Assembly (NCBI GenBank): GCA_947644715.1
Contig: CANSAP010000001.1
Span: 62,001-126,000 of the forward strand
Source of the DNA: an uncultured Bacteroidales bacterium
Lineage (GTDB): Bacteria; Bacteroidota; Bacteroidia; Bacteroidales; Muribaculaceae
Reading direction: 5' to 3'
DNA length: 64,000 nt
The translations under genes were made by a program, and so were the position numbers. Shown in pieces: positions 47,958 to 64,000 of this stretch. The notes beneath the pieces were generated by a model, which saw only the letters and a program-made list of their open reading frames with translations, did not search any database and was not told the origin of the DNA. Numbering within the stretch: position 1 is the first letter of the stretch; each line of letters begins with the position of its first letter.

Positions 47958-47961
47958 GACA

Positions 47962-49820: not shown

Positions 49821-51284
49821 TCAATATTTCATTATAAGCTCTAATTTATCCTCTACGCTACTTGGTGGGCAACCTTGACAGATATAATAGAGCACTCCCA
49901 TACTCTCTTGACCCAGTTGTTTTGCCTTTTCGACAACTCGTGGAGATGAAACAGAAGTGATGAACGTCTTTCCTTCTTCTATCCACTTGCCGAGATTTTC
50001 CATTTGGGTCTCGTAGAATTGTTTTTCACCCAACCAGAACTTTTCCTTGATGGTACCACGGTATTCTTTAGGACATTCTGTTTCTTTTTCAATAGGGTGA
50101 TAGAAATTATTAAAATATCTGAAACTCAGTTGTCCATAAATCGCCCAGCCAGATTTTACTACATTATAGGCTTCATCAAAGGCAATATCAAAATCATGCC
50201 CTTGATCGCTTTGCTGGATATGGGTAATCTTGAAATCTGTTCCGGAAGGCAAAATCTTGAATCGTCCGATGATGTGAAAACTCCTACAGAGATAAATCCA
50301 CCCGTTATCAAGGTAGAAACTATATCGAGAGTCCCAACCTGGTTCAAACGAACGCAGTATTCTTCGTCTAATCTCTTTGGATATAACAATCCCTCCAAAT
50401 TGACTGGGTGCGGAATGATACTTATGCCACTCTACATTTGTACGAGCGTCATTCTTTGGCCAGAACGCATTGTTCCAAGCCACTTGTTTTTTAGCATACT
50501 TAAGGTCATCTTCGTACTTATCAAATATTGCTTTGGGGAGTTCGAGAAAGGTTTCTGGTGAACCTCCGGGATTGAATTTTGACTTAATGAAATATGTGCG
50601 ACAACCATACATTGCCTCTGCTATAAGCCCGGTTAGTGATGCGAGTTGACGAGTATTGGAGTTAGGATAACGGACTGCATTATGAATTGCACTTCCAAAA
50701 TCGAAGGAATTGTAAAAACAATCCCATGCACGCATCAACAGGTCGAAGACGGACTCACTTTCCTTCCACGGCCATTGCTTACGTATATCTTTGAATATAC
50801 CGCCTAATTCCTCATACACTTCATCTTTGGTTGCTCCTGAGCTAAGAAGAGTAATCATCGTCCTTATAAAGATCCGAGCATACCCTTCCGGCTTGTCGAT
50901 ATTATCATCAAAGAAAAGACCAAAATCAGTCTTTTCCGGGTCATCTGAAATAAGGGCATTTGTTGCCAATCTGTTTAGAAGCAGTCCTTGTGCAACTGGT
51001 GTTACCCTCATATTGGGATCATATTTCCATAGCTCAGCTTTCTCAGAGATGCTTGTGACGCGATAATCAGTATCCTCCAAATAGTGTTGAACCACCTCCC
51101 GACAACGGATTCTGTCTTTATCAGTGTAACCACCCTGATGATTCCGCAGAATGTTAGCAGCAGCTAATATTGACAACCCATATTCAGAGATAGTCGCATT
51201 CTCATCAAAGAGTTGCTTATAGAATACCTTGGGGTCTCGCAAATATGTGGACGCAGCAAGATCTCCGTAGATTCCTCCTATCAT
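49821..51284 (-). CDS. ADP-ribosylglycohydrolase-like protein with degenerate metal site
   Basis: A 487-residue protein. The N-terminal 240 residues follow the DraG/ARH helical fold: MIGGIYGDLAASTYLRD resembles the usual MLGAIIGDIxGSxYE opening, and AIHNAVRYPNSNTRQLASLT, then GLIAEAMYG resembles the segment that normally reads GGDTDTIAAITGAIAGAYYG. The usual metal-binding aspartates (TDDT and GGDTDT) are absent: GGYTDKDR and PNSNTRQ stand in their places, so it may bind rather than hydrolyse ADP-ribose. The C-terminal half (250-487) is unrecognised. It lies 15 bases after the WYL gene and 28 bases before gajA. Fold assignment is by motif, not alignment search. Confidence 0.62.
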   Translation of the reverse strand: MIGGIYGDLAASTYLRDPKVFYKQLFDENATISEYGLSILAAANILRNHQGGYTDKDRIRCREVVQHYLEDTDYRVTSISEKAELWKYDPNMRVTPVAQGLLLNRLATNALISDDPEKTDFGLFFDDNIDKPEGYARIFIRTMITLLSSGATKDEVYEELGGIFKDIRKQWPWKESESVFDLLMRAWDCFYNSFDFGSAIHNAVRYPNSNTRQLASLTGLIAEAMYGCRTYFIKSKFNPGGSPETFLELPKAIFDKYEDDLKYAKKQVAWNNAFWPKNDARTNVEWHKYHSAPSQFGGIVISKEIRRRILRSFEPGWDSRYSFYLDNGWIYLCRSFHIIGRFKILPSGTDFKITHIQQSDQGHDFDIAFDEAYNVVKSGWAIYGQLSFRYFNNFYHPIEKETECPKEYRGTIKEKFWLGEKQFYETQMENLGKWIEEGKTFITSVSSPRVVEKAKQLGQESMGVLYYICQGCPPSSVEDKLELIMKY

Positions 51285-51299
51285 AGAAAATTGTAGTGT

Positions 51300-51623
51300 T
51301 TAGTATTCCTCTCCGTAGAGATTGAAGATTGGCTTGCTTGCATCAAACTCATAGTTAAATACCTGCTTGACCGTTCTTTTGTTTGAACTGGGCACAATTC
51401 GGGCATCGACTATACGTGAAATCTTGAATGTACGTTGCTCCTGTCGCATATGGCAGTAAGCACTGATATATCCAACACCGTATTCTGTGCTGATAGACAC
51501 TTCACTAATAGTTCGAGTTGATTTCTCAAAACTACTTTTAGCATAGTCAATCTCCAATGTCAGATGATCTTCTATGGCACGGCTGATGATTTGCTGTATT
51601 GTAATTCCTTTCTCCATACTCAT
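51300..51623 (-). CDS. Stand-alone WYL domain protein
   Basis: A 107-residue protein consisting mainly of one WYL-like SH3 barrel: AIEDHLTLEIDYAKS, then ISEVSISTEYGVGYISAYCH, and RTFKISRIVDARIV, which matches the WYL pattern 'l...I.Y.......r.v.P......g..yl.a.c......R.F.ldRI....'. There is no HTH, so it is not a classical DNA-binding regulator by itself. WYL proteins are frequent ligand sensors in phage-defence loci. The ATG overlaps the helicase stop (ATGA). Confidence 0.8.
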   Translation of the reverse strand: MSMEKGITIQQIISRAIEDHLTLEIDYAKSSFEKSTRTISEVSISTEYGVGYISAYCHMRQEQRTFKISRIVDARIVPSSNKRTVKQVFNYEFDASKPIFNLYGEEY

Positions 51624-54409
51624 TTAGTTTTAGACTGTGCATAACGAATTAAGTATCCTAAGGCGTTTCTTTCCGGAGATACTGCCTTAATATACTCAGC
51701 ATTCCCGACTATATACAAGGTCTGACGAGCACGTGTTACGGCCACATTGACAAGGTTGGGTACCATATAGTCAATCCAATTTACCTTCCGTTGTGGGGAG
51801 TTATCAGTGACCACCATACTGTAGATCATTACATCCTTTTCATCACCTTGAAAGCCATGAGCTGTATTGACTTCAACATTTTCTTTTATAGAGTCATCGA
51901 GGCGAGATTTTATATAATCTGCCTGATCCCGGAATGGTGTAACTATTCCGATAGTCACATCAGCCTTTAACGTGCATAATTCTTTGGCAAGAGAGACGGC
52001 TCTTTCCGCTTCTATTCGATTGATATTGATGTTCTCAGATTCCTGTTTGCCTCGAATATTAATCATGACAATACCTTTCTGAGGAAGCGTCATCTTGCTT
52101 TCGTCAGTTTTGACATTCAAGGGCTTGTCAAGAAATCTTCCATAGAACTGATGGTTGGAGTAGCCAATAATGTCATGATGACATCTGTAATGATTTTCAA
52201 GAGTAATTGGGGAGCCATTCTGATTGGCATGACCCAAGAAATCTTTAGCATAGTCCCACAGTGAATCCTTAACATACTTTAGGTATGGTCGAGATGTCAA
52301 TCCCAGATGCTCTCGAATTTGGTTTTCTTCTTCCTCATTGACTGAAGTAATGTGTCGCAACTGCATGGGATCGCCTATGATAACTACCTGCTTTGCCCTA
52401 AGTATAAGAGGCAAGGCAGAAGCCACGTCACACTGCGAAGCCTCATCAATAATTAATACATCAAACAAGTTGTCTGTCAAGGGGAATCCCGATTTTACTG
52501 ATAGGCTCGTCACTGATATTAATCGGCAAACTGACAGGAAATCCTTACTCCTTCTAATAAACTCAGGAATCTCAGAGTCTCTCCAGGGTATTCTGTCTGG
52601 AAGATAAGCAGTATAGTTGGCTATCTTTTGAGCCACCCCTTGACCTCTTTCTATCTCCATAATCTTAGCCGCAACTAATTGTGGACCAAGATTAATAAGA
52701 AGTTCTTTTGATCGCTCAATCAAATTTATCAATGCACTCTTCTTTGCTGTCAGATTTTCCAACTCCGAAGCCAAGGCTGCGTAATTTTTATTAAGAGTTG
52801 CCAACCGTGCGTTCAAATTGGAAACAGTTGAGGAATGTCTTTTAGTTTCCTTTTCCACAGCCCGTCTCCAATCGGAAATTCTCTCCAGAATCGAAATTAC
52901 AGAGGAAGAGTGCTCAATTATCGCGGTGCCATCCTTAAAATCATTGACGGAAGACGTTAGATTCTTGTCTCGCAATTCTGATTTGATAGAGGAAGGAAGA
53001 TCCTCAATATGACCTAGCAGAATCTCCGCATGTTTCTTCTTGGAGAAGATATTATGCCATATTCCTGACAAGCCCGAATACTTCCGTTGAAGGGAGTTCC
53101 TTAATCGAGTTATCTGACTGGAAACATTAGATATGCGATCTAAGGATATATTTTCTATATGAGCCACATCAGAATACTTGTATCTTAACGCATTCAAGGA
53201 ATCTATGTTTTGCTGATCTTCCTCCTTTATTTGATTCTCGACTGCTGACTTGTCAGAAATCAACTTGGGTATAGCAATTTGTAACTCCTCAATTCGAGCA
53301 AGTTTCTTCTTTGCATCCTTTATAGAAGTTGTTACCTGCCTATACTGAGAGAGCAACGTGGAGAGAGTGTCCGGTTGATTTTGAAGGGCATTCAGGCGAC
53401 TCTGAATACGTGTCAAAGCTGGAATAGTTTGACTTCTAACGTACTCTTTCTTCCCAAAGCGTAACAGATACTGACTAGAATCAATGTCGTCAAATCTCTC
53501 CTTTACGTTGTCTACAGCCTTGTTGTTCTTGCTTGCCACCAATACTGTTTTGTCTTTCAGCAATGCATTGGCGATGGTATTCAATATCACCTGTGTTTTC
53601 CCAGTGCCGGGAGCTCCAGTGACTACAGAAAATCTATTGCTAAGTGCATGAGCAACTACCGAAGCCTGACTATCGTCAAGCATACTTACAGGAACCAGCT
53701 CATCAACAGAAACCTGTTCAATCAGATTGTCAAATTCCGAGTGCATCAGGAAATGCTTGAGAAGATCATTTCTCTCAACCATCTGAGAACTGAATTTATT
53801 CAATTCCGCAGAAATTTGAGATAGAGCAATATTCTTGGAGCTTAAGCTCAACTGTAGCTCCAGCTTTAATTCGACACTATTACCAAAATGCCTTTTTACA
53901 AGTTCCTGAAGGTCGTAGATACTCTTTACCTGATTTAACTCTCCCTCAATTTCTTCTATCTTCTTCTCATCATCGAGTTCGAGTTCACTAATATGACGAC
54001 TGTCCAATGTAAGATTGGAAATCCGTATTGGCAGGAGATTATCATTAGGGTCAAAGCCTTTCAAATCATCATAGTCAACAGTAACACTGAACGCGATAAT
54101 CTGTCCGGATTTATCTTTGCGAATGATAGGAATTCCAACATAAAGATCCTTCGGAAAGCTCTGATCTTTATTGTCAAGAAACGCTTTAGTGAAATTGACA
54201 TTGCATGGCATATCAATAAGCATAACATCACTGTCATTGTCCTTGAAATGCAAAGCGTAAGGATAATACGTAGCAATATCAGGCTCTTTGCTGCGCTCCA
54301 ATTCTAGGATGGTTTTATAGAAACCTATGATTTTATCTAATTCGGAAAAGTACGGACCGATTGTTTTCCGAAGCAGACGCTTGAGTGTTATATTTTCAGA
54401 TTGCTTCAT
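51620..54409 (-). CDS. Superfamily 1 helicase (UPF1/DNA2-like) with long insertion
   Basis: A 929-residue helicase. Residues 1-240 are an unrecognised N-terminal domain. Walker A VVTGAPGTGKTQ (about 262-273) and motif Ia VLVASKNNKAVDNV follow. A 250-residue coiled-coil-rich insertion (about 330-600) comes before motif II LLIIDEASQCDVASALPL-type (seen as VLIIDEASQCDVASALP) and motif III VVIIGDPMQLRHI. Motifs V and VI are VNTAHGFQGDEKDV and NVAVTRARQTLYIVGN. This AAA_11/AAA_12 architecture matches DNA/RNA helicases of the UPF1 clade that occur in bacterial conflict loci. It overlaps the WYL gene and lies 13 bases from the zinc/PH-like gene. Confidence 0.85.
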   Translation of the reverse strand: MKQSENITLKRLLRKTIGPYFSELDKIIGFYKTILELERSKEPDIATYYPYALHFKDNDSDVMLIDMPCNVNFTKAFLDNKDQSFPKDLYVGIPIIRKDKSGQIIAFSVTVDYDDLKGFDPNDNLLPIRISNLTLDSRHISELELDDEKKIEEIEGELNQVKSIYDLQELVKRHFGNSVELKLELQLSLSSKNIALSQISAELNKFSSQMVERNDLLKHFLMHSEFDNLIEQVSVDELVPVSMLDDSQASVVAHALSNRFSVVTGAPGTGKTQVILNTIANALLKDKTVLVASKNNKAVDNVKERFDDIDSSQYLLRFGKKEYVRSQTIPALTRIQSRLNALQNQPDTLSTLLSQYRQVTTSIKDAKKKLARIEELQIAIPKLISDKSAVENQIKEEDQQNIDSLNALRYKYSDVAHIENISLDRISNVSSQITRLRNSLQRKYSGLSGIWHNIFSKKKHAEILLGHIEDLPSSIKSELRDKNLTSSVNDFKDGTAIIEHSSSVISILERISDWRRAVEKETKRHSSTVSNLNARLATLNKNYAALASELENLTAKKSALINLIERSKELLINLGPQLVAAKIMEIERGQGVAQKIANYTAYLPDRIPWRDSEIPEFIRRSKDFLSVCRLISVTSLSVKSGFPLTDNLFDVLIIDEASQCDVASALPLILRAKQVVIIGDPMQLRHITSVNEEEENQIREHLGLTSRPYLKYVKDSLWDYAKDFLGHANQNGSPITLENHYRCHHDIIGYSNHQFYGRFLDKPLNVKTDESKMTLPQKGIVMINIRGKQESENININRIEAERAVSLAKELCTLKADVTIGIVTPFRDQADYIKSRLDDSIKENVEVNTAHGFQGDEKDVMIYSMVVTDNSPQRKVNWIDYMVPNLVNVAVTRARQTLYIVGNAEYIKAVSPERNALGYLIRYAQSKTK

Positions 54410-54422
54410 AACTTACAGATTA

Positions 54423-55526
54423 TTATAAATTTGTCAGTTGCGAAATTACATTCATGATAAACCATGGATCAAATCCTTGCAGGGTGAGACGTTTGGCGGA
54501 AGCTCCATCCCTATGAACTTCAATCCCATCACTGTAGGGAGTGAATCCGATTATCTTAGAGAAAGGTATCTTTACGTTCTTCATCTGCGACCAAAATATC
54601 AGATTCTTATTCGTGACATAAAGCATCCCGATTCCCTGGAGTTCCATACTTGAACGCTCCACAGGATGACCTTTGCTCCTTCCCGTCCGATAATAAACTC
54701 CCTTGCACACCCTAAAACTGAATCCACTATTCCGTCCTACCCATTCTCGTGTCACCTTTTCCTGATAACACGATACGTTAGAATAAGCCCACAACACCGA
54801 TTCGTTCTTTCCTAAGATTATAGGAACTTGAATATTGGTTTTGGGAACAATTCCGTTCTGCAAAGCCTTAATCAACGCGACTTGACTCAACTTGCTAATG
54901 TCTCCGTTCTGATATGGTGCCGGAATGTTGTTTAGTGGCAACCCCAATGCTTGGGTATAGTCGGTTATCTTTATTTGCTCATCATTCGACAAAGTGCCGT
55001 CTGAGAGGAAATTTGTGGCAGCTTTATCCAAGACATGCCAGTAAGCGTCCGCTATCTGTTCTTGGGACATAGGGAAGCGTTTCAGCACACTTCCACAACG
55101 TTGCTGTGCTACATTCAGAGGCAGTTGGTCTGTAAAGTAGTCTACCATAAATCCTCTCATTAGCTTCTTGGTAAACTCGTCAAGTCCTCCTTTAGCAGAG
55201 ACAGTCTGATATGGAACACTTAGAGTATTAAGAATATCATCTACAAGGTGCATCGACCTTGGAGAATAAGGACGTCGGAGAGAGGCAGTATAATCCCTTG
55301 TAACTCTGTCAAAGACTGTGGCAATATCATCATCACTGAGGAAGTTGACACTACGATATGTAGACAACTTAGACCTAAGACGTGTGCAATCCCCAGTATT
55401 ATTAGACAAGATTAGCCGGAGGTCTTGTTCAAGACCCCTAAGCCCATCAGAATGCTTATCCTCACATTCCTTATGAACCTTGGATAATATCCCAGCCTTT
55501 AAGCCACAGTATTTGCAGTTTCCCAT
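54423..55526 (-). CDS. Protein with zinc knuckle, TerB-like helical segment and PH/GRAM-like domain
   Basis: A 367-residue protein. Residues 4-21 form a possible zinc site (CKYCGLKAGILSKVHKEC: CxxC...HxxC). The middle part (about 130-205) is helical and includes FLSDGTLSNDEQIKITDYTQ, a pattern like the acidic loop-helix of TerB-like domains. The C-terminal 140 residues are beta-rich; MELQGIGMLYVTNKNLIFWS, KNVKIPFSKIIGFTPYSDGI and then EVHRDG look like a bacterial PH/GRAM-type domain. No catalytic motif. It lies two bases after the preceding small gene. Domain calls are by eye and need profile searches; the zinc site is the firmest part. Confidence 0.6.
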   Translation of the reverse strand: MGNCKYCGLKAGILSKVHKECEDKHSDGLRGLEQDLRLILSNNTGDCTRLRSKLSTYRSVNFLSDDDIATVFDRVTRDYTASLRRPYSPRSMHLVDDILNTLSVPYQTVSAKGGLDEFTKKLMRGFMVDYFTDQLPLNVAQQRCGSVLKRFPMSQEQIADAYWHVLDKAATNFLSDGTLSNDEQIKITDYTQALGLPLNNIPAPYQNGDISKLSQVALIKALQNGIVPKTNIQVPIILGKNESVLWAYSNVSCYQEKVTREWVGRNSGFSFRVCKGVYYRTGRSKGHPVERSSMELQGIGMLYVTNKNLIFWSQMKNVKIPFSKIIGFTPYSDGIEVHRDGASAKRLTLQGFDPWFIMNVISQLTNL

Positions 55527-55528
55527 TA

Positions 55529-55942
55529 CTAATCAATTTCAAGATATGCCGCGTAAGCTACAGCTCGTTCAATCCTGTCGGACATAGAGGTGATATAGTT
55601 GAATAGGAAGTCTTTAATTTCTTGGTTCAAATCTTCTTCTCTATTCAAATGCTCAATTATCCAGGACAAGATTTCTCCCATACCATTCTCTTTGAGTTTT
55701 CTTCCACCAACTTCTTCCAGTATTTTGCGGCTCTCGTCAATGTGAAGTTGAGGAATTAAGCGAGCTATCAAAGCGGCCGTATGTTCCCCAAGTCGAGGAT
55801 TTATGGAGAAAAGGTATTTTCTTATGGTTTTATTTCGGTAAGCTGCCAGAGCAAATGAATCATCAGCGTATTCTACCAAACAGCCCATACGGAACATTTC
55901 ATGAATAAGTCCATCAAAGATATAGTAGGAGTTAAAAATCAT
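55529..55942 (-). CDS. Small helical protein, possibly second half of a split gene
   Basis: About 137 residues from the ATG at 55942 (MIFNSYYIFDGLIHEMFRMG). It is helical and acidic with no known motif. The start overlaps the end of the next upstream ORF by 11 bases. Removing one T from the TTTTT run near 55937 would join the two into a smooth protein of about 199 residues (…LARQNDF + NSYYIFDG…). As the island has other homopolymer frameshifts, a split gene is plausible; two coupled genes are equally possible. Confidence 0.5.
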   Translation of the reverse strand: MIFNSYYIFDGLIHEMFRMGCLVEYADDSFALAAYRNKTIRKYLFSINPRLGEHTAALIARLIPQLHIDESRKILEEVGGRKLKENGMGEILSWIIEHLNREEDLNQEIKDFLFNYITSMSDRIERAVAYAAYLEID

Positions 55943-56123
55943 TCTGACGTGCAAGACTATCATTATTCTTAATGATTTGCTCCCACATATCAACCATCAT
56001 ATCGAGATCAATGGCCTTCATAGATCTCAAAACTTTGAAAACAGCCTCCTGTTTTGCAGGCCACATATCTTTTAGAACATCGAATGTATCTATCAATAAT
56101 TCTTTCTTTGCTCCCTTATTCAT
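55932..56123 (-). CDS. Small protein upstream of the previous ORF
   Basis: A 63-residue helical protein (MNKGAKKELLIDTFDVLKD, then AVFKVLRSMKAIDLDMMVDMWEQ) with no recognised family. It starts 5 bases after the PP2C gene and ends inside the following ORF. It may be the N-terminal part of one 199-residue protein broken at a T-run. No function is proposed. Confidence 0.5.
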   Translation of the reverse strand: MNKGAKKELLIDTFDVLKDMWPAKQEAVFKVLRSMKAIDLDMMVDMWEQIIKNNDSLARQNDF

Positions 56124-56128
56124 AATGA

Positions 56129-57280
56129 TTATTTTTGAGTATTAGCCAAGCGTTGATAAAAGCCTTTCTTACCACGGAGTCGTTGCCATTGCAACTGCAA
56201 GTTCGCAAAAGCCTCTTTCGCTTTGACAAGGTCTTTCTTCTTGTATTCCAATTCTATTCGCTGAGATTCCGAACCGATTTCTGAGCCAGCCTTCTCAATA
56301 AGTGCTTCCAAGTCAGCAATTTTTGAATCCAAGGATTCTCGTCTCTTGATATTCCTGGTCATCTGATAGCTGAGAAGCTGCACTGCGATGTCAACGGCAA
56401 CTGAAGGGTCGTAAATGATTGCCACAGACATATCATCCTTGCTGCCTCGCTTAGAGATTTCAGTGAGGTCGCTGACCAAAGCTTTCATAGCCTTATCCTT
56501 TCCTTTAGCGATTTCAAGCATGACATTCATGTAGAAGTTCTCTAACAACTCACCATCACCGTATGTATCATCAAGTCCATCGCTGCCCAGGAACACTGCT
56601 GTCGGGAATGATTTATCACTGCAATAGCAGTAGCGGAACTCATCAAGGGCTTTGCTGTCGCAGATTGAAGTGGTCTTGTTGAGAAAGCACTTATCGTCCC
56701 AAGGTACTGGCTGAGCAAAGACAGGTTCACCATCGACCATATTTAGGGTCAGAAGTTTGCCATCACCAATCTGAAATGCCGCCCAGTAGGTTGAAGTTCT
56801 GAAAAAAGCCATCAGAGTACATCCGTAGGTCTTCTCAGGACTTTTAGCCGAAAGAAATTCATTCCAATATTTCTCATCAACATGGGTCAATTCCCATTCC
56901 GACAACGGATTTTCCTCAGCATGACGCTCTATGGCTTCATTCCACTGAGCGATGATTGACGAGAACAACCATCGGAGCTTATGATCGACAACTCCCAAGC
57001 CTGGCACGGATTCCGGATCATCATTAGATGTAGTAAGACGCATACCGCCATATCCACCACCCAACTTCATGAATTGTCTGATGGCCTCGGCTGTAATTTC
57101 CACAAGCAGCTTTGAGCCTACATCACTTCGGAAATAGCGTTCGCCTCCATGACCATCGCTGACGATGGCCATAGAGTACGAACCTTCGCTTTCTGCATAG
57201 GCGCAATCTTGACAGGGTTTATCAGTCGAAATATGACTGAAACCACGGCAAAAGTGAAAAATAGAATCCATATCAACCAT
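56129..57280 (-). CDS. PP2C-type protein phosphatase (TerY-P module)
   Basis: A 383-residue Ser/Thr phosphatase of the PPM family. Metal and catalytic motifs are IVSDGHGGERYF (residues about 38-49), FQIGDGKLL, FLGSDGLDDTYG and RGSKDDMSVAIIY. The N-terminal segment HFCRGFSHISTDKPCQDCA fits the usual 'G.sH...n..CQD' opening. A coiled-coil tail follows (300-383). In TerY-P modules a PP2C opposes a kinase alongside a vWA protein; here vWA and kinase lie directly upstream, spaced 15 and 29 bases. Confidence 0.9.
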   Translation of the reverse strand: MVDMDSIFHFCRGFSHISTDKPCQDCAYAESEGSYSMAIVSDGHGGERYFRSDVGSKLLVEITAEAIRQFMKLGGGYGGMRLTTSNDDPESVPGLGVVDHKLRWLFSSIIAQWNEAIERHAEENPLSEWELTHVDEKYWNEFLSAKSPEKTYGCTLMAFFRTSTYWAAFQIGDGKLLTLNMVDGEPVFAQPVPWDDKCFLNKTTSICDSKALDEFRYCYCSDKSFPTAVFLGSDGLDDTYGDGELLENFYMNVMLEIAKGKDKAMKALVSDLTEISKRGSKDDMSVAIIYDPSVAVDIAVQLLSYQMTRNIKRRESLDSKIADLEALIEKAGSEIGSESQRIELEYKKKDLVKAKEAFANLQLQWQRLRGKKGFYQRLANTQK

Positions 57281-57295
57281 AGGTCAGATTGTGGA

Positions 57296-58042
57296 TCAAT
57301 CCCACTCGTCGTAATTATCCTGCTTTGAAGGTGCCGGAGCGGCAGCTGATTCTGCACCGGCCACATCTTTGGCAGCCTCAGTAATCTGTTCCTCCACCTG
57401 CTTCTGTTTGGATTCATCGGTTGCGCTGCTGCTCTTGCTTCCGATTTGTGAAGATGTCACGGCGATGATGCGAATCATTTTCTTAAGCGCATCAATGTTA
57501 TGCACCTTGATGACAGCTTCGAGCGAGCCTGTGAATTGTTTCAGCACCTCCATGTCAGCGTCATCGCCTATGGCAATGGCGATTTTGATGGCACTCTTAA
57601 ACCAGCTGTTGTTCTTAAGTACAGCCAGTCCGCTCTCAAAATCGTCTGTCGGACCACCGTCAGAAAGAAGGATGATTGCCGGAGCATAGCATCCGCTGGG
57701 TGAAGACATGAAACCGTTGCTGCGTGAGAGTTTCTTGTTAAGCTCACGGCAAGCCTCTCCAAGAGAGGTCATCCCCTCAGCAGTGACTTTCTGCCAGATG
57801 AAGTCCTTGCCCTCCTTCGGCTCATCATAAAGCCAACGGGTATCGGTTGAGAACTCCAGAGCAGCCACGCGGATTTCTGCATCTGGATTTTCGTCAGAGA
57901 TTTCCCCTATGATGGGGAGTACATTTTCGATGGCATCGTTCACGCTGCCGATTTTACTTCCGTCCATACTTCCTGACTTGTCAATCAGGAAGAACAGTGT
58001 CATTTGACGACGGGGAATACTTTCATTGTCAAGAAGTCCCAT
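57296..58042 (-). CDS. von Willebrand factor A domain protein (TerY-like)
   Basis: A 248-residue cytoplasmic vWA protein. The metal-ion-dependent adhesion site is complete: FLIDKSGSMDG (DxSxS), the Thr in AEGMTSLGEA, and the Asp in LLSDGGPTDD. The vWA fold covers residues 12-195; the tail is low complexity (SSQIGSKSSSATDESKQK...) and ends DNYDEWD. TerY-type vWA proteins pair with a PP2C and a kinase; all three are adjacent here. The zinc domain that other TerY proteins carry at the C-terminus is encoded separately at 59368-59727. Confidence 0.9.
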   Translation of the reverse strand: MGLLDNESIPRRQMTLFFLIDKSGSMDGSKIGSVNDAIENVLPIIGEISDENPDAEIRVAALEFSTDTRWLYDEPKEGKDFIWQKVTAEGMTSLGEACRELNKKLSRSNGFMSSPSGCYAPAIILLSDGGPTDDFESGLAVLKNNSWFKSAIKIAIAIGDDADMEVLKQFTGSLEAVIKVHNIDALKKMIRIIAVTSSQIGSKSSSATDESKQKQVEEQITEAAKDVAGAESAAAPAPSKQDNYDEWD

Positions 58043-58071
58043 AATGTGGTTGTTTAGTTGAGATGATTATA

Positions 58072-59331
58072 TTATTGAATTTCAAATTTTAATGTGCCGA
58101 TGGAAAGTTTCAGTCCCGTTCTCACAGGTACACAAGCACCCGGTTCGATTGATTTGATTTTGCCGGATTGTGTCTCTACCACCCAGTTTTTTTTGGTGAC
58201 ATTCTGTAGCTGCACGGGATACTTGTCACCCGGAACAGGTATGACTTTTATATCGGGATTGTTGTCATCATCGATATAGACTGTTGTATTCGGAGTGAGA
58301 AGTATCTCCCTGCCATTGCCAAGGACTAATTTACCGGAGAGGTCTAACAGCTTTCCACAATTCATACAGACAGGAGCCGCAGAATCGGAAACGAAAGTTT
58401 CATTGCCACATTTCGGACACCTTACCAGCGTATCGCGGAGACTCTGTATAACTCCTTTCCATTTCTTTTCTATCATGCGCTTGTCGGGAGCGGATAGAAT
58501 CTCCTTGCTGAATTGCTCTTTGAAAGCGTCCTGTAGCTGCTTGGGCATCGCAGGCCAACGGCGGAGCACGTTGTTGTGTACGCCACGTACAGGACGGTTC
58601 TCCTTGTTATCGTCATAGATAAACAGAATCTCCGAACCATAGAATTTCTTCTCAAATGTCTCAGTCATGCAAGGACAAGCCAACACTCTCGACCCTTCAA
58701 AGGGATGATTGCCAAAAAACAGCATGAACAGGATTACGGCAAGTGAGAAGCGGTCAGAATACTTGTCAGGAGCTTTCCCACCGACTACTTCCGGTGCCAT
58801 ATATCGTGCCTTACCCATTATGCCGGATTTGCGGCCATCGGGCATCACGTTGTCGTTGTCGCATATCAGAACGTCTCCAGTCTGAGGCTCGATGAAGAAG
58901 TTACCATCGTTTAGGTCCTGATAGCTCAATCCTGAAAGGTGGAGTTTGTAGAAACCCTCGCATATCTTCATGGCGGCATTGAGCATAGCTTCAAATGACC
59001 CGAACTGACGTCTTGCCAGCAGATATTGTCCGAATTCATAATATCCCTGCGGACGCAGTTTCATTATGTAGCCGTAGCTTCCTTTTTCTTTTCTTGTAAG
59101 ATATTCGGGCCATAGGAAAGCATCGGAGGGTGAACCCTTTGAGATATTCTCTTCGAGGTTCTTATAGAATTTATTGTCGGGAGCTTTCAGATACCATTTC
59201 AGAGCCATCTGTTTGCCTCCAAGATCAACAAGATAGACAATTCCTTGTCCACCACGTCCAAGCTCCTTGACTATCTTAGCCTGCACGCCATTCGTGAGGT
59301 TTACTTTGTCTCCGGTCTTTAGTTCTTGCAT
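58072..59331 (-). CDS. Ser/Thr protein kinase with zinc ribbon and C-terminal beta domain
   Basis: A 419-residue kinase. The Gly-rich loop is ELGRGGQGIVYLV, the ATP-binding lysine is in MALKWYLK, the catalytic loop reads YQDLNDGNFF (Tyr-Gln-Asp in place of HRD, but Asp and Asn retained), the metal loop reads CDNDN in place of DFG, and MAPEVVGG is the APE motif. Residues about 315-340 are a zinc ribbon (CPKCGNETFV...CMNCGKLL). The last 80 residues form a beta-rich domain, perhaps FHA- or SHS2-like. It is the kinase of the TerY-P set, with vWA and PP2C downstream. Confidence 0.85.
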   Translation of the reverse strand: MQELKTGDKVNLTNGVQAKIVKELGRGGQGIVYLVDLGGKQMALKWYLKAPDNKFYKNLEENISKGSPSDAFLWPEYLTRKEKGSYGYIMKLRPQGYYEFGQYLLARRQFGSFEAMLNAAMKICEGFYKLHLSGLSYQDLNDGNFFIEPQTGDVLICDNDNVMPDGRKSGIMGKARYMAPEVVGGKAPDKYSDRFSLAVILFMLFFGNHPFEGSRVLACPCMTETFEKKFYGSEILFIYDDNKENRPVRGVHNNVLRRWPAMPKQLQDAFKEQFSKEILSAPDKRMIEKKWKGVIQSLRDTLVRCPKCGNETFVSDSAAPVCMNCGKLLDLSGKLVLGNGREILLTPNTTVYIDDDNNPDIKVIPVPGDKYPVQLQNVTKKNWVVETQSGKIKSIEPGACVPVRTGLKLSIGTLKFEIQ

Positions 59332-59367
59332 TTTATAGTGATTGGTGTTTGAGTTTAATACTTGTTT

Positions 59368-59727
59368 TTAGAATCCTCCGCCTGAGAGATCAACAGACTC
59401 AGCGGCCTTCAGTGTGGAACTTGCGCCACAATTCGGGCAGGTCACAGATTCCTGTCCGTGATAGCACACCACCTTTCCGCATCTGCTACAGATGTAAAAC
59501 TGCTTGCTTCCACAATAGGGGCAACCATTGAAATCTGAATCAAAAGAGATTGCTCCATGCACCGACTTTTTGTCGTAGCCTTCACGTTTTCCTTGACCTT
59601 CCTTTATCTTGAAACCCCAGCAGAAGGCGTAGTGGCCACGTCTTGAATCTACTGTGATGCCGAAATTCTCTTTCGTCTTCTCACACATTGCCATTACAGC
59701 AAATGCTTCCTTACTTAACTTGCCCAT
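59368..59727 (-). CDS. TerY_C-like zinc-binding protein
   Basis: A 119-residue protein whose C-terminal 60 residues contain three Cys pairs: CPYCGSKQFYICSRCGKVVC and CPNCG. This pattern matches the TerY-C metal-binding domain normally fused to TerY vWA proteins. Residues 1-60 have a small alpha/beta segment (GKLSKEAFAVMAMCEKTKENFG), ending GGGF at the C-terminus. Its ATG overlaps the brxL stop by one base. It may work in trans with the vWA protein encoded two genes downstream. Confidence 0.8.
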   Translation of the reverse strand: MGKLSKEAFAVMAMCEKTKENFGITVDSRRGHYAFCWGFKIKEGQGKREGYDKKSVHGAISFDSDFNGCPYCGSKQFYICSRCGKVVCYHGQESVTCPNCGASSTLKAAESVDLSGGGF

Positions 59728-61796
59728 TACTCCTTCGTGTATATTACGGAAAACTCACGGCATTTGCGCCTGTCCTGACGGGCTGAAGCCAGAGTGTAGT
59801 TCTCAGCTTTTTCATAAATGTCGAGACCACTCCCGAGCGAGATGTTCCAACCGGTGTCTGTCTTTATGAAACGGTCATGGAAATCACGGAAAAAATAATC
59901 GAACTCTATGCCGTAACCTACCATGTCATCCTTGATAGTGTCAAAGTTGTCTATCATCCCGGCATGTTTTTCGAGGTCATCGTGCTCTTTGGTGATTACC
60001 TTGACTTTCAGCCCATCTACGGGGCGAGTGTCTATCAGCATACCGAGGAAGTCAACCAAGTTGCGGAATTGATGGGGTGCCCTGATATATGGGTCTTCGA
60101 TAATAATCTCCTTGGCATCTTTCAAGTATTCTCCAAAAAGATCCTTGTATGTCACACCGGTCTGACCAAGACGGAACGAGCGACGACCCTGTGCAAGTTG
60201 AGACTGTATGCGAGGACGTCTCTGACGTGTAGGCTCCTGTGGATTTTCTGATGGTGTGCCATTGAAATCTGTCTGGGGTTCCTCTTCCTGTGGAGTTATC
60301 TTCTCATTCTCAATTATTGGTTGGATAAGGACATTGCTTACCTTTTCAAGGGTCTCCACGTTGATCCAGTCTTCACTTCCGGGCTTCTGATAACGGAACA
60401 CGGCGGGCTCCGCCTTGAAGGTCTCGTCAATGATATAGAGCTGGTCTTTTACTCGTTTGCGGCTTTCAGTTGCGAAGTCGATAATTTCGTATGCTTCCTC
60501 ATCGGTCATGTTGCCGTCAGGATAGAGCAGCTTCACCATTCCTGAGAATGTCTTTCGGATAGCGTTGTGGTCTCGTTCTGAAAGCGAACCATCGAAGATA
60601 GCGTATTGCTTCAACATGCCTGTCAGATCTTTGTCGCGCAGTGCATGGAGGATGGCTGCCAAATAGTCTGAGATTAGACCGTAACCCTTGGTAAAGCTGT
60701 CTTTCTTCAACATGCGGATTTCCCAACCGGGATTATATAGATGAATACGGTCGAGGAATGCACCCTTGATAAAGGAGGTCGGAATAGACTCAAACAGATG
60801 AGAGTTGCGGAGCATATAGGGAACAGTGTGCTTGGTGTTGCCCACAAACACCATAGAGGCAGACGCTTCATGGGTTCCCTTGCCACGGTTGAACGACTTG
60901 TTGGCAAGATAGTTCTGCATCGTGTCGATGAGAACGGCTTCCACATTACGACCTTTCTGCTGCTCAAACTCGTCCCAAGCAACTACATCCCAGTAGCCGA
61001 CAAGACCAAGTTCCTCCTTCTTGCCACTCATTCTTACGAATAGTCGCGGAGAAGTCACGTCGCCACCACTCACGAGCACCCCGTATGGGGAGAGTTCCTG
61101 AAAGACATGGCTCTTGCCGGTACCTTTCGGTCCGAGTTCCATGAAGTTGAAGTTATTCTCTATATGCGCCAGGAGTCGTGCGAGGGTTATGAATTTCTCC
61201 CTGCGGTTGAGTGCCGAGGGTTCAAGACCTACTGTATGAATCAAAACATCAATCCATTCTTCTGTGGTGAAATCCTTGCGCTTGTCGATATATTCCTGAA
61301 GGTCAATGTTGGAGATTTGTACAGGCTTCAATGTCTGGATATCCCATCTCTGCTTTATGTCTTCACCTGACAGATACCCGATGGTGACGATACACCATAC
61401 ACCGTTGCCGGATAGCAGCTTCGGATTTGCCACTACATAGTTGGAACCTATGGGCACGTTAGAAAGCCCAAGGTTGGCAAAGGTTGCCACATATTGGTCA
61501 TCGCGTTCATTGAGGGTAGCCGTAACCTTATCGATGACACGGAAGCGACCGAGTTCTTTGATCTTGCTCTTGACCATCTCGCTGTCAGAGCGACGGATGT
61601 AGTTGTTCTGTATTACATCCTTCACTTTTTCAAGTCCGTGCTCGATGGCATCTGGATCGTCAGTAGCGCAATACTGGCCGAGCAAGTATTCCAACACGTA
61701 TGTCGGCACAGGCAGTCCTCCCTTCACCTGAAAGGCAAGGTCTTTACGCACCACCTTTCCGCAGAAGCTGTTCAATATTTTATCTTGAAGTTCCAT
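59727..61796 (-). CDS. brxL: BrxL-type AAA+ ATPase with C-terminal MIT_C (MITD1-like) domain
   Basis: A 689-residue protein. Residues about 1-500 follow BREX Lon-like BrxL: a first domain, then Walker A FMELGPKGTGKSHVFQEL (about 222-238), GVLVSGGDVTSPRLFVRM, Walker B DVVAWDEFEQ, and FVGNTKHTVPYML. A Pro/Glu-rich linker follows (500-550). Residues about 553-689 do not look like a Lon protease; they match the phospholipase-D-fold MIT_C domain of MITD1: EIIIEDPYIRAPHQFRNL, FHDRFIKTDTGWNISLGSGL, DIYEKAENYTL and RRKCREFSV. No Ser-Lys protease dyad is apparent. It lies 5 bases after pglZ. Confidence 0.85.
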   Translation of the reverse strand: MELQDKILNSFCGKVVRKDLAFQVKGGLPVPTYVLEYLLGQYCATDDPDAIEHGLEKVKDVIQNNYIRRSDSEMVKSKIKELGRFRVIDKVTATLNERDDQYVATFANLGLSNVPIGSNYVVANPKLLSGNGVWCIVTIGYLSGEDIKQRWDIQTLKPVQISNIDLQEYIDKRKDFTTEEWIDVLIHTVGLEPSALNRREKFITLARLLAHIENNFNFMELGPKGTGKSHVFQELSPYGVLVSGGDVTSPRLFVRMSGKKEELGLVGYWDVVAWDEFEQQKGRNVEAVLIDTMQNYLANKSFNRGKGTHEASASMVFVGNTKHTVPYMLRNSHLFESIPTSFIKGAFLDRIHLYNPGWEIRMLKKDSFTKGYGLISDYLAAILHALRDKDLTGMLKQYAIFDGSLSERDHNAIRKTFSGMVKLLYPDGNMTDEEAYEIIDFATESRKRVKDQLYIIDETFKAEPAVFRYQKPGSEDWINVETLEKVSNVLIQPIIENEKITPQEEEPQTDFNGTPSENPQEPTRQRRPRIQSQLAQGRRSFRLGQTGVTYKDLFGEYLKDAKEIIIEDPYIRAPHQFRNLVDFLGMLIDTRPVDGLKVKVITKEHDDLEKHAGMIDNFDTIKDDMVGYGIEFDYFFRDFHDRFIKTDTGWNISLGSGLDIYEKAENYTLASARQDRRKCREFSVIYTKE

Positions 61797-61801
61797 ATAG
61801 C

Positions 61802-64000
61802 TTAAAAGTCTTGTTCAATTATAGTATTGTTTTTCACGGCCTCTTTCAGGATGGGATTCAGTCTCTTTTCATCTTTCGTGTCAAATATCCTCAGCTGGAG
61901 AAGACCGGGAGCAACCGACTGATTCAGTGTGAGGGTCACGACATTGATACGGTTGGATGGATCCGGTTCGTTACTGTCCAAAGTAACTGTCACTTCATTT
62001 GACACTGCCTTGTCTCCTTGATAGAGGGCGCAAACAATGGAACGAGCCTGCATTGTCATATCCACCATATCCTCTTGGAGAACGTTGAATTTCAACCTAC
62101 TTGAAACTACGTTCAGATTATGAGACAGAAGCGATACTCCTACAAAGTCGGTCTTGTCACTGCGACGCTGACTACTATGAATTACCGGAACAATAAGCTC
62201 CTGCAATGATGCGCCCCCGTGTACGAAGTTATACCCTCCGGCAGCTGCAATCCTGTTGGTACCCTTAGGCACACCGACGTACACTGGTTCATCTGATTGA
62301 ATTGGCGAAACCTTTTCAAGAGGGAACTTGACTATACCTTCTATTTTGTGGTCATCAGTAGTAAGATAATACCTTGTCTTCTTCTCTATATCAGCGTCCG
62401 GAATCTGGATTTTGTCCTTCTCCTCGATCTCAATGTCGTTGTAAAGGAATCCGTGATCGGAGGTCACTATTACATTCACTACGTTCATTGAGGCATGTAG
62501 GCTCTTGACCAGTGAAGAAAGTTGCTCCACTGTCCTGCGGCATGCTTCTATAACTTCTACAGGATTCTGTCCATGCCCTGTATCATCTATTGTATCGTGG
62601 TACAGATAAACCAAGGGGTGCTTGAACACGTCTCTGTTGGCAGCCAAGTTGTTTTTCACATACTCAGAGTAATTGAGGCAAATCGCATTCTGTCGGTATG
62701 AAGCAAGATGATTGCTACGCATCTCGATTGTGGATAGCACCTGACCGTCTACCGCCGTCTCTACTGTTTTATCAGTCTTGACAAGCGTAAGTGTATGGTG
62801 TGGCATAAGAGCCGGCTTACCAAACTTGGTCTCAGTAGGAAGAAGTGCAAAGTTGGCTGAAAGCTTGGCGATATGCTTTTCCTTCCCTAAAGAGTCGAGC
62901 AACTCCTGTGCGACCTCATAACGGAGGGCGTCTGAGATAATCACCACAAGTTTGTTCTTGCCACCGGTTCCGGCATATTCCCTCTGGTAGAAGTCTTCCT
63001 GTCGTGGAATCGAGATGGTGCCGAAATCCAGACCGCACTCGGTCACGCAATCCATCCACTCCAAATTAATGTCATTTACCAGTCTTGCATAGTCAAGATC
63101 GAGTTGATGTTTCCGTTTTTCGAGAGCAGAGATAATCGGGATTACTTCCGACGACAATTTATGATGCACTTCTAAAGCCTTGCGGTAGAGTTGGTCGAAG
63201 ATATAGAAGTCGGTAGTGTAACGGTCTATGAAGTCCTGGGGTGTGGACAACTTGATTGAACCAAGACGGAGTTTCTTCTCGTAAAATGTAGCCACCTTGT
63301 CAATAAAGCTCAATACTGATAGAATGAGGTCATTCTCATTGAATTTCAATGTAAGCGCAGCCACTCGTTGCCTTGTCTCGGCAGGATCTTCCAAAAGCGA
63401 CACTTCCAGAATATGATTCAGTATCGGCCAAGCGAGTGCTTCCGTCATGGCATAGTATTGGGCATCTATTCCATAGACATCTATCAGCTCTCTTTCACGG
63501 ATATTCGACGCAAGTTCACCAAGAGCCTCTTCAAATCCTTTCCTCCACTGCTTTGAATTGCTTCCCAAGTCAAATATGCGGTTGATTTGCTGGAGTTGCA
63601 GGGCAGAGTTGATTTTTAGTGACTTATACGTGTCTGCACTATTTGGCGCCAAGAGTTGGGTGATACTGTTATACTTCAAGGACTGCGCCACATCTTCCAT
63701 TTTCTCCATGGAATTGGGATTGTAGGTCACACCGAATATACGGTTGAGCTTATCATCTATTGCAGCCTTGACATCGCGGTTCTTCTCAGCCCTCAAGAAG
63801 AAGGCAATTCGTTTCGCTTCCTCGCTCTTTCTTCCGAGCAGGATCATCTTTATTATGATACTCTCCCAGTCAAGAAGTTTCTTTTCTCCAAGATATGAGC
63901 TGATGATTGCTCTGAGGGGAATATCCTCAGAGAAAATCTCAGGAGTGAGATACGCCTCCAAGATAGACAGTACTTTGACCGACTGAAGTTCCTCGATATG
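61802..64000 (-). CDS. pglZ: PglZ-domain alkaline-phosphatase-fold protein, 5' end outside window
   Basis: The frame stays open to the right edge, so the N-terminus is missing; a TTG at 63961 is internal, not a start. The visible 732 residues include the PglZ core: KLVVIISDALRYEVAQELL, LYHDTIDDTGHG and VIVTSDHGFLYND, the metal-binding positions of the alkaline-phosphatase superfamily, in the middle of the protein. The C-terminal 120 residues are beta-rich. PglZ is the hallmark of BREX systems; here it lies directly upstream of brxL. The genes that would sit further upstream (brxC, pglX or others) are outside the window. Confidence 0.9.
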   Translation of the reverse strand, partial: HIEELQSVKVLSILEAYLTPEIFSEDIPLRAIISSYLGEKKLLDWESIIIKMILLGRKSEEAKRIAFFLRAEKNRDVKAAIDDKLNRIFGVTYNPNSMEKMEDVAQSLKYNSITQLLAPNSADTYKSLKINSALQLQQINRIFDLGSNSKQWRKGFEEALGELASNIRERELIDVYGIDAQYYAMTEALAWPILNHILEVSLLEDPAETRQRVAALTLKFNENDLILSVLSFIDKVATFYEKKLRLGSIKLSTPQDFIDRYTTDFYIFDQLYRKALEVHHKLSSEVIPIISALEKRKHQLDLDYARLVNDINLEWMDCVTECGLDFGTISIPRQEDFYQREYAGTGGKNKLVVIISDALRYEVAQELLDSLGKEKHIAKLSANFALLPTETKFGKPALMPHHTLTLVKTDKTVETAVDGQVLSTIEMRSNHLASYRQNAICLNYSEYVKNNLAANRDVFKHPLVYLYHDTIDDTGHGQNPVEVIEACRRTVEQLSSLVKSLHASMNVVNVIVTSDHGFLYNDIEIEEKDKIQIPDADIEKKTRYYLTTDDHKIEGIVKFPLEKVSPIQSDEPVYVGVPKGTNRIAAAGGYNFVHGGASLQELIVPVIHSSQRRSDKTDFVGVSLLSHNLNVVSSRLKFNVLQEDMVDMTMQARSIVCALYQGDKAVSNEVTVTLDSNEPDPSNRINVVTLTLNQSVAPGLLQLRIFDTKDEKRLNPILKEAVKNNTIIEQDF

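Follow-up and report, generated by a model that had tools for sequence, protein, structure and literature searches.

A TerY-P module docked behind brxL in a type-1 BREX operon of an uncultured Bacteroidales bacterium

The right end of the DNA analyzed here (64,000 nucleotides, referred to as the window) holds the 3′ portion of a complete type-1 BREX operon, which is probably extended, within one transcription unit, by a TerY-P module docked behind brxL that adds a second layer. In our reading the module is co-expressed and forms a putative further layer of defence that is tied to BrxL, with TerY_C as the possible link. All components are already known; the docking and a BrxL motif that tracks it are not described in the literature searched. 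They bear on the triggering and control of BREX attack and on the interplay of defence systems that share an operon.

Gene content of the operon

The genes are listed in the direction of transcription, with window coordinates.

61802..64000, minus strand, running on to C1:126366 (366 bases beyond the window): pglZ, 854 aa; Pfam PglZ, E 6.7e-40
59727..61796, minus strand: brxL, HKD variant; Pfam BrxL_N, BrxL_ATPase and MIT_C (PLD-like); HDRFIKTD at residue 640
60318..60344, minus strand: codons of the docking-linked BrxL linker motif KVSNVLIQP, residues 485-493
59368..59727, minus strand: TerY_C zinc protein, 119 aa; Pfam TerY_C, E 2.4e-8
58072..59331, minus strand: Ser/Thr kinase with C-terminal zinc ribbon; Pfam Pkinase, E 3e-16
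57296..58042, minus strand: vWA (TerY-like) protein; Pfam VWA, E 6.8e-9; DxSxS
56129..57280, minus strand: PP2C phosphatase; PP2C_2, E 1.9e-26; DGHGG and later Asp motifs
55932..56123, minus strand: small ORF, 63 aa, without Pfam family
55529..55993, minus strand: small ORF, 154 aa, without Pfam family
54423..55526, minus strand: protein with Cys/His-rich N-terminus, helical middle and PH-like C-terminus
51620..54409, minus strand: SF1 helicase, 929 aa; AAA_12, E 2.3e-32
51300..51623, minus strand: short WYL-domain protein; WYL, E 4.8e-11
49821..51284, minus strand: 487-aa ORF ending the tight run, labelled ARH-like; likeness not confirmed

This gene order had been given in a preliminary description of the DNA and proved to be real, and Pfam confirmed the families of PglZ, BrxL with MIT_C, TerY_C, the kinase, vWA, PP2C, the SF1 helicase and WYL. 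The same description reported that no PglX or BrxC is visible, which is true inside the window, but both are encoded on the same strand just right of its edge; their apparent absence arose because the edge cuts the operon. When the contig is read further to the right, the rest of pglZ is followed by SIR2, pglX, Schlafen, brxC, brxB and brxA, which gives a complete type-1 BREX operon (brxA-brxB-brxC-Schlafen-pglX-SIR2-pglZ-brxL) with the core order brxA-brxB-brxC-pglX-pglZ-brxL that characterizes this type. From brxA to the ARH-like gene there are 18 genes with gaps of at most 36 nt, and from pglZ onwards the intergenic distances range from -62 to +36 nt, a spacing that suggests co-transcription.

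PglZ scores as BREX-1 PglZ type A (NCBIfam TIGR02687, 298.7 bits, cut-off 270.35). PglX (1245 aa, encoded two genes upstream of pglZ; BREX_1_MTaseX, 1071.9 bits, cut-off 500) and BrxC (BREX_BrxC, 791 bits, cut-off 400) are of the BREX-1 type. BrxL matches TIGR02688 (518 bits, cut-off 329.3), BrxB has a Pfam match (E 2.7e-24), and BrxA was recognized by PADLOC (3.3e-23), with no match in the NCBIfam scan. A second PglZ of the genome (G000:C33) was considered as a sign of another BREX and rejected, being a response regulator-PglZ protein.

BrxL carries MIT_C (E 8.1e-39), an HKD domain with an HRD motif, in place of Lon; there is no match to a Lon domain, and the full-length Lon-related model TIGR02653 scores 523 bits, below its cut-off of 628. 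According to the accessible part of Rakesh & Krishnan (2026; PMC12839542), an HRD-type HKD domain replaces the inactive Lon in BrxL of 1030 of 2913 taxa. The pattern H.R....D is found inside the last 80 residues of 48 of 54 BrxLs, that of the window included; the six others are short (L071, L072), have an extended end (L059, L077) or lack the last Asp (L051, L074).

The TerY_C start codon overlaps the brxL stop codon by 1 nt (TAATG), and kinase, vWA and PP2C adjoin each other as in the TerY-P triad. Kinase residues K45, D139, N144 and D158, which we take to be catalytic, and C305, C308, C322 and C325, presumably metal ligands, are invariant across eight docked copies; we count the zinc ribbon as present, on matches at residues 303-329 that lie under the curated cut-offs.

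The protein at 54423..55526, which accompanies both docked and free TerY-P modules, had been described as zinc/TerB-like/PH-like. Its N-terminus is Cys/His-rich, PH-likeness applies to the C-terminus with weak fold support (a fold search gave no match at E<=0.001), and the TerB part was not confirmed, no Pfam match to that family being found. The SF1 helicase is similar over part of its length to Mokosh MkoC/MkoA (PADLOC MkoC, 2e-55), and the tail of docked L031 holds a relative (L134, 700 bits), which is followed by a WYL gene as well (63 bits). The ARH-like label was not confirmed: the protein has no Pfam family, a PDB sequence search up to E=1 gave no match, and its predicted fold is unusable (mean pLDDT 39.8).

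The comparisons with known systems refer to the accessible parts of the papers cited. Type-1 BREX with BrxL-HKD (PMC12839542) shares with the window locus the six core genes, the HKD-type BrxL and a Schlafen+histidine-kinase gene inside the operon, whereas the docked TerY_C-kinase-vWA-PP2C module is a feature of the window locus; "PP2C" is absent from the main text of that paper, which is not among the full-text matches for BREX with TerY. The TerY-P triad (Gao et al., 2020, via PMC7699616; PMC11090510) has vWA, PP2C and Ser/Thr kinase in common with the window, which differs by a separate TerY_C, a kinase with zinc ribbon rather than OB-fold, and the docking behind brxL. Type II and III-A CoCoNuT (PMC11090510) likewise carry the triad, with a ZnR kinase, in a larger defence operon. 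Behind the module, docked loci L032 and L043 further resemble these systems by a DEAD helicase of about 1510 aa and a coiled-coil gene. The window locus is without this pair and has its module behind brxL; among the locus genes scanned, Pfam gave no match to a McrB/McrC-type GTPase-nuclease with coiled coil or to the CnuH helicase, and we do not assign it to CoCoNuT. A BREX island with BrxU (PMC8565348) also holds a second defence gene, but this encodes one Type IV enzyme, BrxU, and a kinase/phosphatase module was not found there.

Occurrence and exchange of the docked module

The co-occurrence of these genes in other genomes was examined. Among 53 related BrxL loci, seven have TerY_C and kinase genes directly behind brxL; where their contigs extend far enough, vWA and PP2C come next. 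A locus from a virus collection (L158) has the same genes in the same order at the same place. One docked locus, L037, is from Prevotella sp. 885. Of 392 other genomes in the order sample, five have the kinase clade, so that its association with brxL exceeds chance; at E<=1e-25 it was detected in none of 344 other genomes of the phylum sample. Virus contigs yielded no relative with the kinase alignment and one free module (L187) with a single-protein query.

Related TerY-P modules also occur alone, away from BREX. Since a free module with the same tail is found on plasmid pE2-28, the module does not need BREX, and since most BrxL-HKD loci found are without it, BREX does not need the module. 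The proposal of a system of its own fails for pglZ-brxL, whereas the TerY-P part does occur alone elsewhere. A complete standard BREX flanks the module, and only some relatives of BrxL have the module beside them; the preliminary description had named such a flanking set with sporadic TerY-P genes as refuting its proposal.

In a kinase/vWA tree of 33 rows, the docked-type clade (n=11) comprises nine docked modules and two that sit elsewhere (L161, L198), with 22 free modules outside. Such a tree is consistent with a single docking and two later escapes. A pure BREX-only clade was rejected (p-AU 3e-78) because L161 and L198, though of docked type, sit away from brxL; an earlier tree of 15 rows had been compatible with it. 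On the BrxL tree the docked loci occur in dispersed positions, requiring seven changes of which six are forced by well-supported branches, and therefore recurrent losses or exchanges are indicated; L041 and L044 have undocked sister BrxLs. For eight docked loci the trees of BREX core and TerY-P share three of five splits, which 159 of 20,000 random trees match. Imposed on the module, the complete topology of the core is rejected (p-AU 0.0001). The kinase-vWA-PP2C triad has recently been exchanged between L032 and L070 (dS 0.02-0.07), unlike pglZ, brxL and the TerY_C gene (dS 0.23-0.54).

Conserved blocks end at the end of brxL. Between pglX and pglZ, the loci scanned carry SIR2, Zorya, Gabija or a giant helicase, with complete sets of Zorya (L031) and Gabija (L033) in sister operons. 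Two cargo places are indicated in Bacteroidales BREX operons, the pglX-pglZ interval and the position behind brxL.

A docking-associated motif in the BrxL linker

In a column scan of BrxL, the best 10-residue segment contains V[SN]N.[LV]I.P, which is present in nine of nine docked BrxLs and in two of 42 distinct undocked ones (43 rows, of which L174 repeats the contig of L075). The segment score was reached in 0 of 1000 permutations and in 0 of 600 simulations of fast-evolving labels along the tree, as compared to 9 of 600 with slow and 65 of 600 with still slower labels. The corresponding counts for the single-column score are 9, 131 and 392 of 600. The fitted label rates are fast. A Pagel-type test of motif versus docking gave p 8e-8, a value inflated because the motif had been chosen by scanning, so that weight is put on permutations and label simulations. 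Independent pairs are few: of six, four go with docking, none against, and two are ties (sign test, 0.125). As initially defined, the pattern had nine positions, one of which did not match in a newly added docked locus. The equivalent scan of PglZ gave no signal, 19 of 60 permutations being equally high.

The motif was rejected as a DNA or RNA element because its synonymous codon sites vary; conservation is at the protein level. It was also rejected as a general TerY-P binding site, as no match, even a loose one, was found in 23 free-module stretches (112,427 residues; L187-L194, L198 and L199 are outside this set). Its near confinement to loci with the module hints that BrxL and the module work together, and as a candidate BrxL contact site it offers a small testable handle, consisting of one motif, one small zinc protein and one kinase.

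Relation between the module and BREX

In BREX, PglX marks self DNA, and PglZ and the BrxL-HKD translocase/nuclease are proposed to attack unmarked DNA. The docked module would form a second layer beside this, in which vWA and TerY_C would sense or serve as scaffold, kinase and PP2C would set a switch by phosphorylation, and action or recruitment would fall to the PH-like protein and downstream helicase. What remains of the preliminary reading is the notion that phospho-signalling genes are tied to BREX, on account of the fixed docking point, the overlap and tiny gaps, and the BrxL motif.

It is quite conceivable that the module is an independent backup cassette which uses the BREX promoter and makes no contact with BREX proteins. 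Free modules with the same genes, the Zorya and Gabija sets of the sister operons and the conserved blocks stopping at the brxL end agree with such stacking, and independent layers are documented for BREX with BrxU in the accessible part of PMC8565348. It does not predict the docking-tracking motif, however, nor its absence from BrxL of L030 and L034; in these two genomes, kinase modules of docked type are retained at other places, and docked-type TerY_C is lacking.

That same absence, together with the link between motif and docking and the finding that the TerY_C genes of L032 and L070 have diverged as the core has, unlike the exchanged triad, argues for direct control, in which TerY_C would bind the linker motif and the kinase/phosphatase pair would switch BrxL-HKD (or PglZ) by phosphorylation. 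We hold this to be possible but rather doubtful, as the motif has no conserved phospho-acceptor (its Ser is Asn in L032/L070), many BrxL-HKD loci are without the module, and in L040 and L042 the motif is present in the absence of TerY_C, the L042 genome having neither a docked-type kinase nor a TerY_C protein. As a tentative extension, TerY_C might tether the kinase-phosphatase-vWA switch to the BrxL-HKD linker via V[SN]N.[LV]I.P and physically couple recognition of unmarked DNA to a phosphorylation cascade with helicase effectors of its own; this arrangement would have arisen once in Bacteroidales, with the motif decaying once the module leaves.

It is unlikely that the motif merely hitch-hikes, either on brxL segments recombining along with the module or as a clade marker. 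Module exchange is supported, and chance reaches the single-column score under slow and slower labels, but the HKD domain, which is closer to the docking point, has no columns associated with docking (max 1.03), and under the fast rates that were fitted the simulations rarely or never reach the scores. A methylation-independent, PglX-less BREX, as proposed in the preliminary description, is refuted for the window locus by the PglX and BrxC genes in the same operon and can practically be dismissed: L043 has brxC directly followed by pglZ, and its 36-kb contig is without pglX, but pglX is on the contig of the docked module in the other seven of eight docked loci searched (the window's included) and in a ninth, L158, and a different contig of the L043 genome carries a pglX homologue.

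A complete BREX-1 operon around the window

The window edge falls within pglZ, and the host contig (147,921 bases) extends further to the right, where SIR2, pglX, a Schlafen/AlbA gene, brxC, brxB, and brxA are encoded on the same strand. The preliminary description, which reported no PglX or BrxC, is corrected by this stretch: both genes are present and belong to the BREX operon. PglX (BREX_1_MTaseX, 1071.9 bits), BrxC (791 bits), and PglZ type A (298.7 bits) score above the NCBIfam cut-offs, while BrxB is recognized by Pfam and BrxA by PADLOC. From brxA to the gene labeled ARH-like, 18 genes cover 27.8 kb with gaps of -62 to +36 nt; past this gene, the next longer gap (278 nt) comes after the first OLD-like piece. 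The full core gene set and the tight gaps indicate that the type-1 BREX operon is complete and that the initially described gene block forms its 3′ half. Docked to this BREX-1 system is a TerY-P module whose association with it is ancient.

According to PMC12839542, PglX is responsible for marking and PglZ for nicking, BrxL is a DNA-binding AAA+ protein with a proposed HKD nuclease role, and auxiliaries inside BREX loci include OLD-ABC, Schlafen, and others. For 1030 of 2913 BrxL-bearing type-1 taxa, the same paper reports a BrxL that ends in an HRD-type HKD nuclease. The window BrxL (Pfam domains BrxL_N, BrxL_ATPase, and MIT_C; H.R....D motif at 640) matches this type. The term PP2C is absent from the main text of that paper, and the single vWA passage found in its accessible parts concerns MoxR-vWA systems.

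Additional features in the vicinity of the operon and on another contig (L007 is the stretch right of the window):
L007 2387-3151, minus strand: WYL-domain protein, 391 nt upstream of the small ORF preceding brxA
L007 4552-6465 and 9017-9658: transposase-like ORFs upstream of the BREX operon (named by eye from translations)
Window 49460-49792, 48936-49181, and 47962-48900, minus strand: OLD/GajA-like gene in three pieces behind the ARH-like gene (TOPRIM in the last)
Window 47214-47957 and 46183-47163, minus strand: helicase-like gene in two pieces (named by eye)
L005 11677-13344 (contig G000:C33): second PglZ of the genome

The WYL-domain protein is possibly a BREX regulator. The OLD/GajA-like and helicase-like pieces (46183-49792, minus strand) look like a decayed Gabija-like pair. 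The second PglZ was rejected as a BREX component, being a response regulator-PglZ protein that is presumably PorX-like by its layout.

The TerY-P module and its docking behind brxL

Behind brxL follow the genes for TerY_C (119 aa), a kinase with a zinc ribbon, a vWA protein, and a PP2C. The catalytic kinase residues K45, D139, N144, and D158 do not vary across eight copies, and PP2C and vWA have their metal motifs. The PH-like protein behind the module has relatives beside both docked and free modules, the latter being those found elsewhere without BREX beside them. Its model is moderate (pLDDT 75.6), and its C-terminus shows a weak likeness to PH/PTB folds (fold search, no match at E<=0.001). 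The earlier labels "TerB-like" and "ARH-like" were not confirmed.

A non-exhaustive scan of the genome collection with six short peptide patterns for close BrxL relatives yielded 53 loci. TerY_C and kinase genes lie directly behind brxL in seven of these (L031, L032, L033, L037, L039, L043, and L070), with vWA and PP2C coming next up to the contig limits (the L037 contig stops after the kinase, that of L070 inside PP2C). Four loci (L028, L065, L066, and L072) are unjudgeable because their contigs end about 0.5 kb or less from brxL. A virus-collection contig, L158 (L157 has the same sequence), is the eighth docked locus besides the window. As far as the contigs reach, the proposed module order is shared by these seven loci and L158, and the module is absent from most of the BrxL loci found. 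Among eight docked loci measured, brxL and TerY_C overlap in the window, L032, and L070 and are 1-9 bases apart in the rest. The same contig carries pglX in seven of the eight, window included (a partial copy at the contig end in L037), and also in L158. In docked locus L043 (G125:C256), brxC directly precedes pglZ and the contig lacks pglX, a homologue of which is found at the start of contig C216 of that genome. An undocked 12.6-kb contig (L030) has the order pglZ-brxL-brxA-brxB-brxC-pglX and is a rearranged or tandem BREX.

BREX often shares superoperons with CoCoNuT, and TerY-P accompanies various restriction systems (PMC11090510). A TerY-P module behind brxL is not described in the accessible parts of that paper or of the YprA paper, and a literature search covering few subscription papers found neither the docking nor the BrxL motif described.

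A BrxL linker motif associated with docking

A scan of BrxL columns against docking peaks in the linker that joins the ATPase domain to the HKD domain. The pattern [KQ]V[SN]N.[LV]I.P was found there in all eight docked loci known when it was written (KVSNVLIQP, residues 485-493, in the window). L158, obtained after the pattern was fixed, has TVSNALIMP, which misfits at the first residue and fits at the other eight, while the motif is absent from the newly seen undocked BrxLs L159, L160, L126, and L127. The core motif V[SN]N.[LV]I.P occurs in 9/9 docked but only 2/43 undocked rows (42 distinct; L174 repeats L075), namely L040, a deletion locus, and L042. Its codons differ at synonymous positions, which indicates that it is kept as protein.

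No association with docking is seen in the HKD columns (maximum 1.03, versus 4.33 for the motif), and one ATPase column scores 2.14. Among 10-residue windows the motif ranks first, its score being reached by 0/1000 permutations and, for labels evolved on the tree, by 0/600 (fast), 9/600 (slow), and 65/600 (slower). The single-column score was reached in 2/1000 permutations and in 9/600, 131/600, and 392/600 label sets, respectively. Independent pairs gave four for, none against, and two ties, and a simulated-trait test gave 0/5000 for a motif picked beforehand by scanning.

Such a kinase occurs elsewhere in 3 of 17 undocked genomes searched (those of L030, L034, and L047, all without the motif) and was not found in the L040 and L042 genomes. 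The kinases of the L030 and L034 genomes (L198 and L161) are docked-type, with no TerY_C in six frames of the surrounding stretches. Whole-genome searches found no TerY_C in the genomes of L034, L040, and L042, a single match (22.7 bits, 29%) in that of L030, and a free-type TerY_C (39%) in that of L047. This distribution indicates that the motif goes with docked-type TerY_C and not with the triad in trans, L040 and L042 being exceptions. On this ground, TerY_C is our candidate partner for the motif.

Beyond the observed composition, order, spacing, docking, and motif, the BREX core and the module would be on one transcript and TerY_C would contact BrxL. Kinase and PP2C may form a switch read by vWA/TerY_C, with the SF1 helicase and the PH-like protein as putative effector or recruiter.

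History of the module and variable cargo

A kinase+vWA tree with 33 rows unites 11 docked-type modules (nine docked plus L161 and L198, which are not beside brxL) in one group (SH-aLRT 99) and leaves 22 free modules outside. Docked modules as one exclusive clade were not rejected by a 15-row tree but were rejected by the 33-row tree. In the BrxL tree, docked loci are scattered (seven changes) and a single docked clade is rejected. For eight docked loci, the BREX core (pglZ+brxL) and TerY-P trees have 3/5 splits in common (equaled by 159/20,000 random trees), or 2/4 without L070 (1230/20,000), but an AU test on the module rejects the full core topology (p-AU 0.0001). Between L032 and L070, dS is 0.23 for pglZ, 0.33 for brxL, and 0.54 for TerY_C, versus 0.026 for the kinase, 0.073 for vWA, and 0.016 for the 5′ part of PP2C; identity along the stretch is a mosaic. 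It seems that the triad was exchanged and that TerY_C remained with the BREX core. The simplest scenario has a single docking event, followed by losses, escapes, and exchange.

At E<=1e-25, 6 of 393 genomes sampled from the order encode a kinase of this clade and 20 encode BrxL; the window's genome alone has the two together. The kinase was found in 15/111 genomes of the window's genus, in 8/299 of the genus of L033's genome, and in 0/344 other genomes sampled from the phylum. Among matches from the order and genus searches, the window, L032, L070, and L033 are docked; the stretches around the other 25, some on short contigs, have no brxL. Plasmid pE2-28 carries HTH-TerY_C-kinase-vWA-PP2C-...-PH-like-FGE-UvrD/exonuclease, with no BREX gene annotated within the 41 kb shown; PH-like-FGE-UvrD/exonuclease also follows the docked module of L031.

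Docked/undocked pairs (L041/L033, L042/L037, and L044 and L080/L031) have pglZ-brxL in common and likeness stops at the brxL end; the L041 and L044 comparisons start at pglZ, as do their contigs. L040 and L032 have brxL in common, followed in L040 only by a vWA-like scrap and a DUF1848 gene; in L032 these two come 10-11 kb later, which is the mark of a deletion. The pglX-pglZ interval also varies among docked loci.

Cargo between pglX and pglZ
Window: SIR2
L031: ZorABCD, inside the BREX operon
L033: GajA/GajB, inside the BREX operon
L032: giant helicase protein (a similar one in L070)

Behind PP2C, L032 and L043 encode a DEAD helicase of about 1510 aa with DpdF similarity and a coiled-coil protein, possibly CnuH/CnuE of CoCoNuT. 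In the docked L031 operon, SF1 and WYL are followed at the far end by two GmrSD-type genes (L134 9366-13643).
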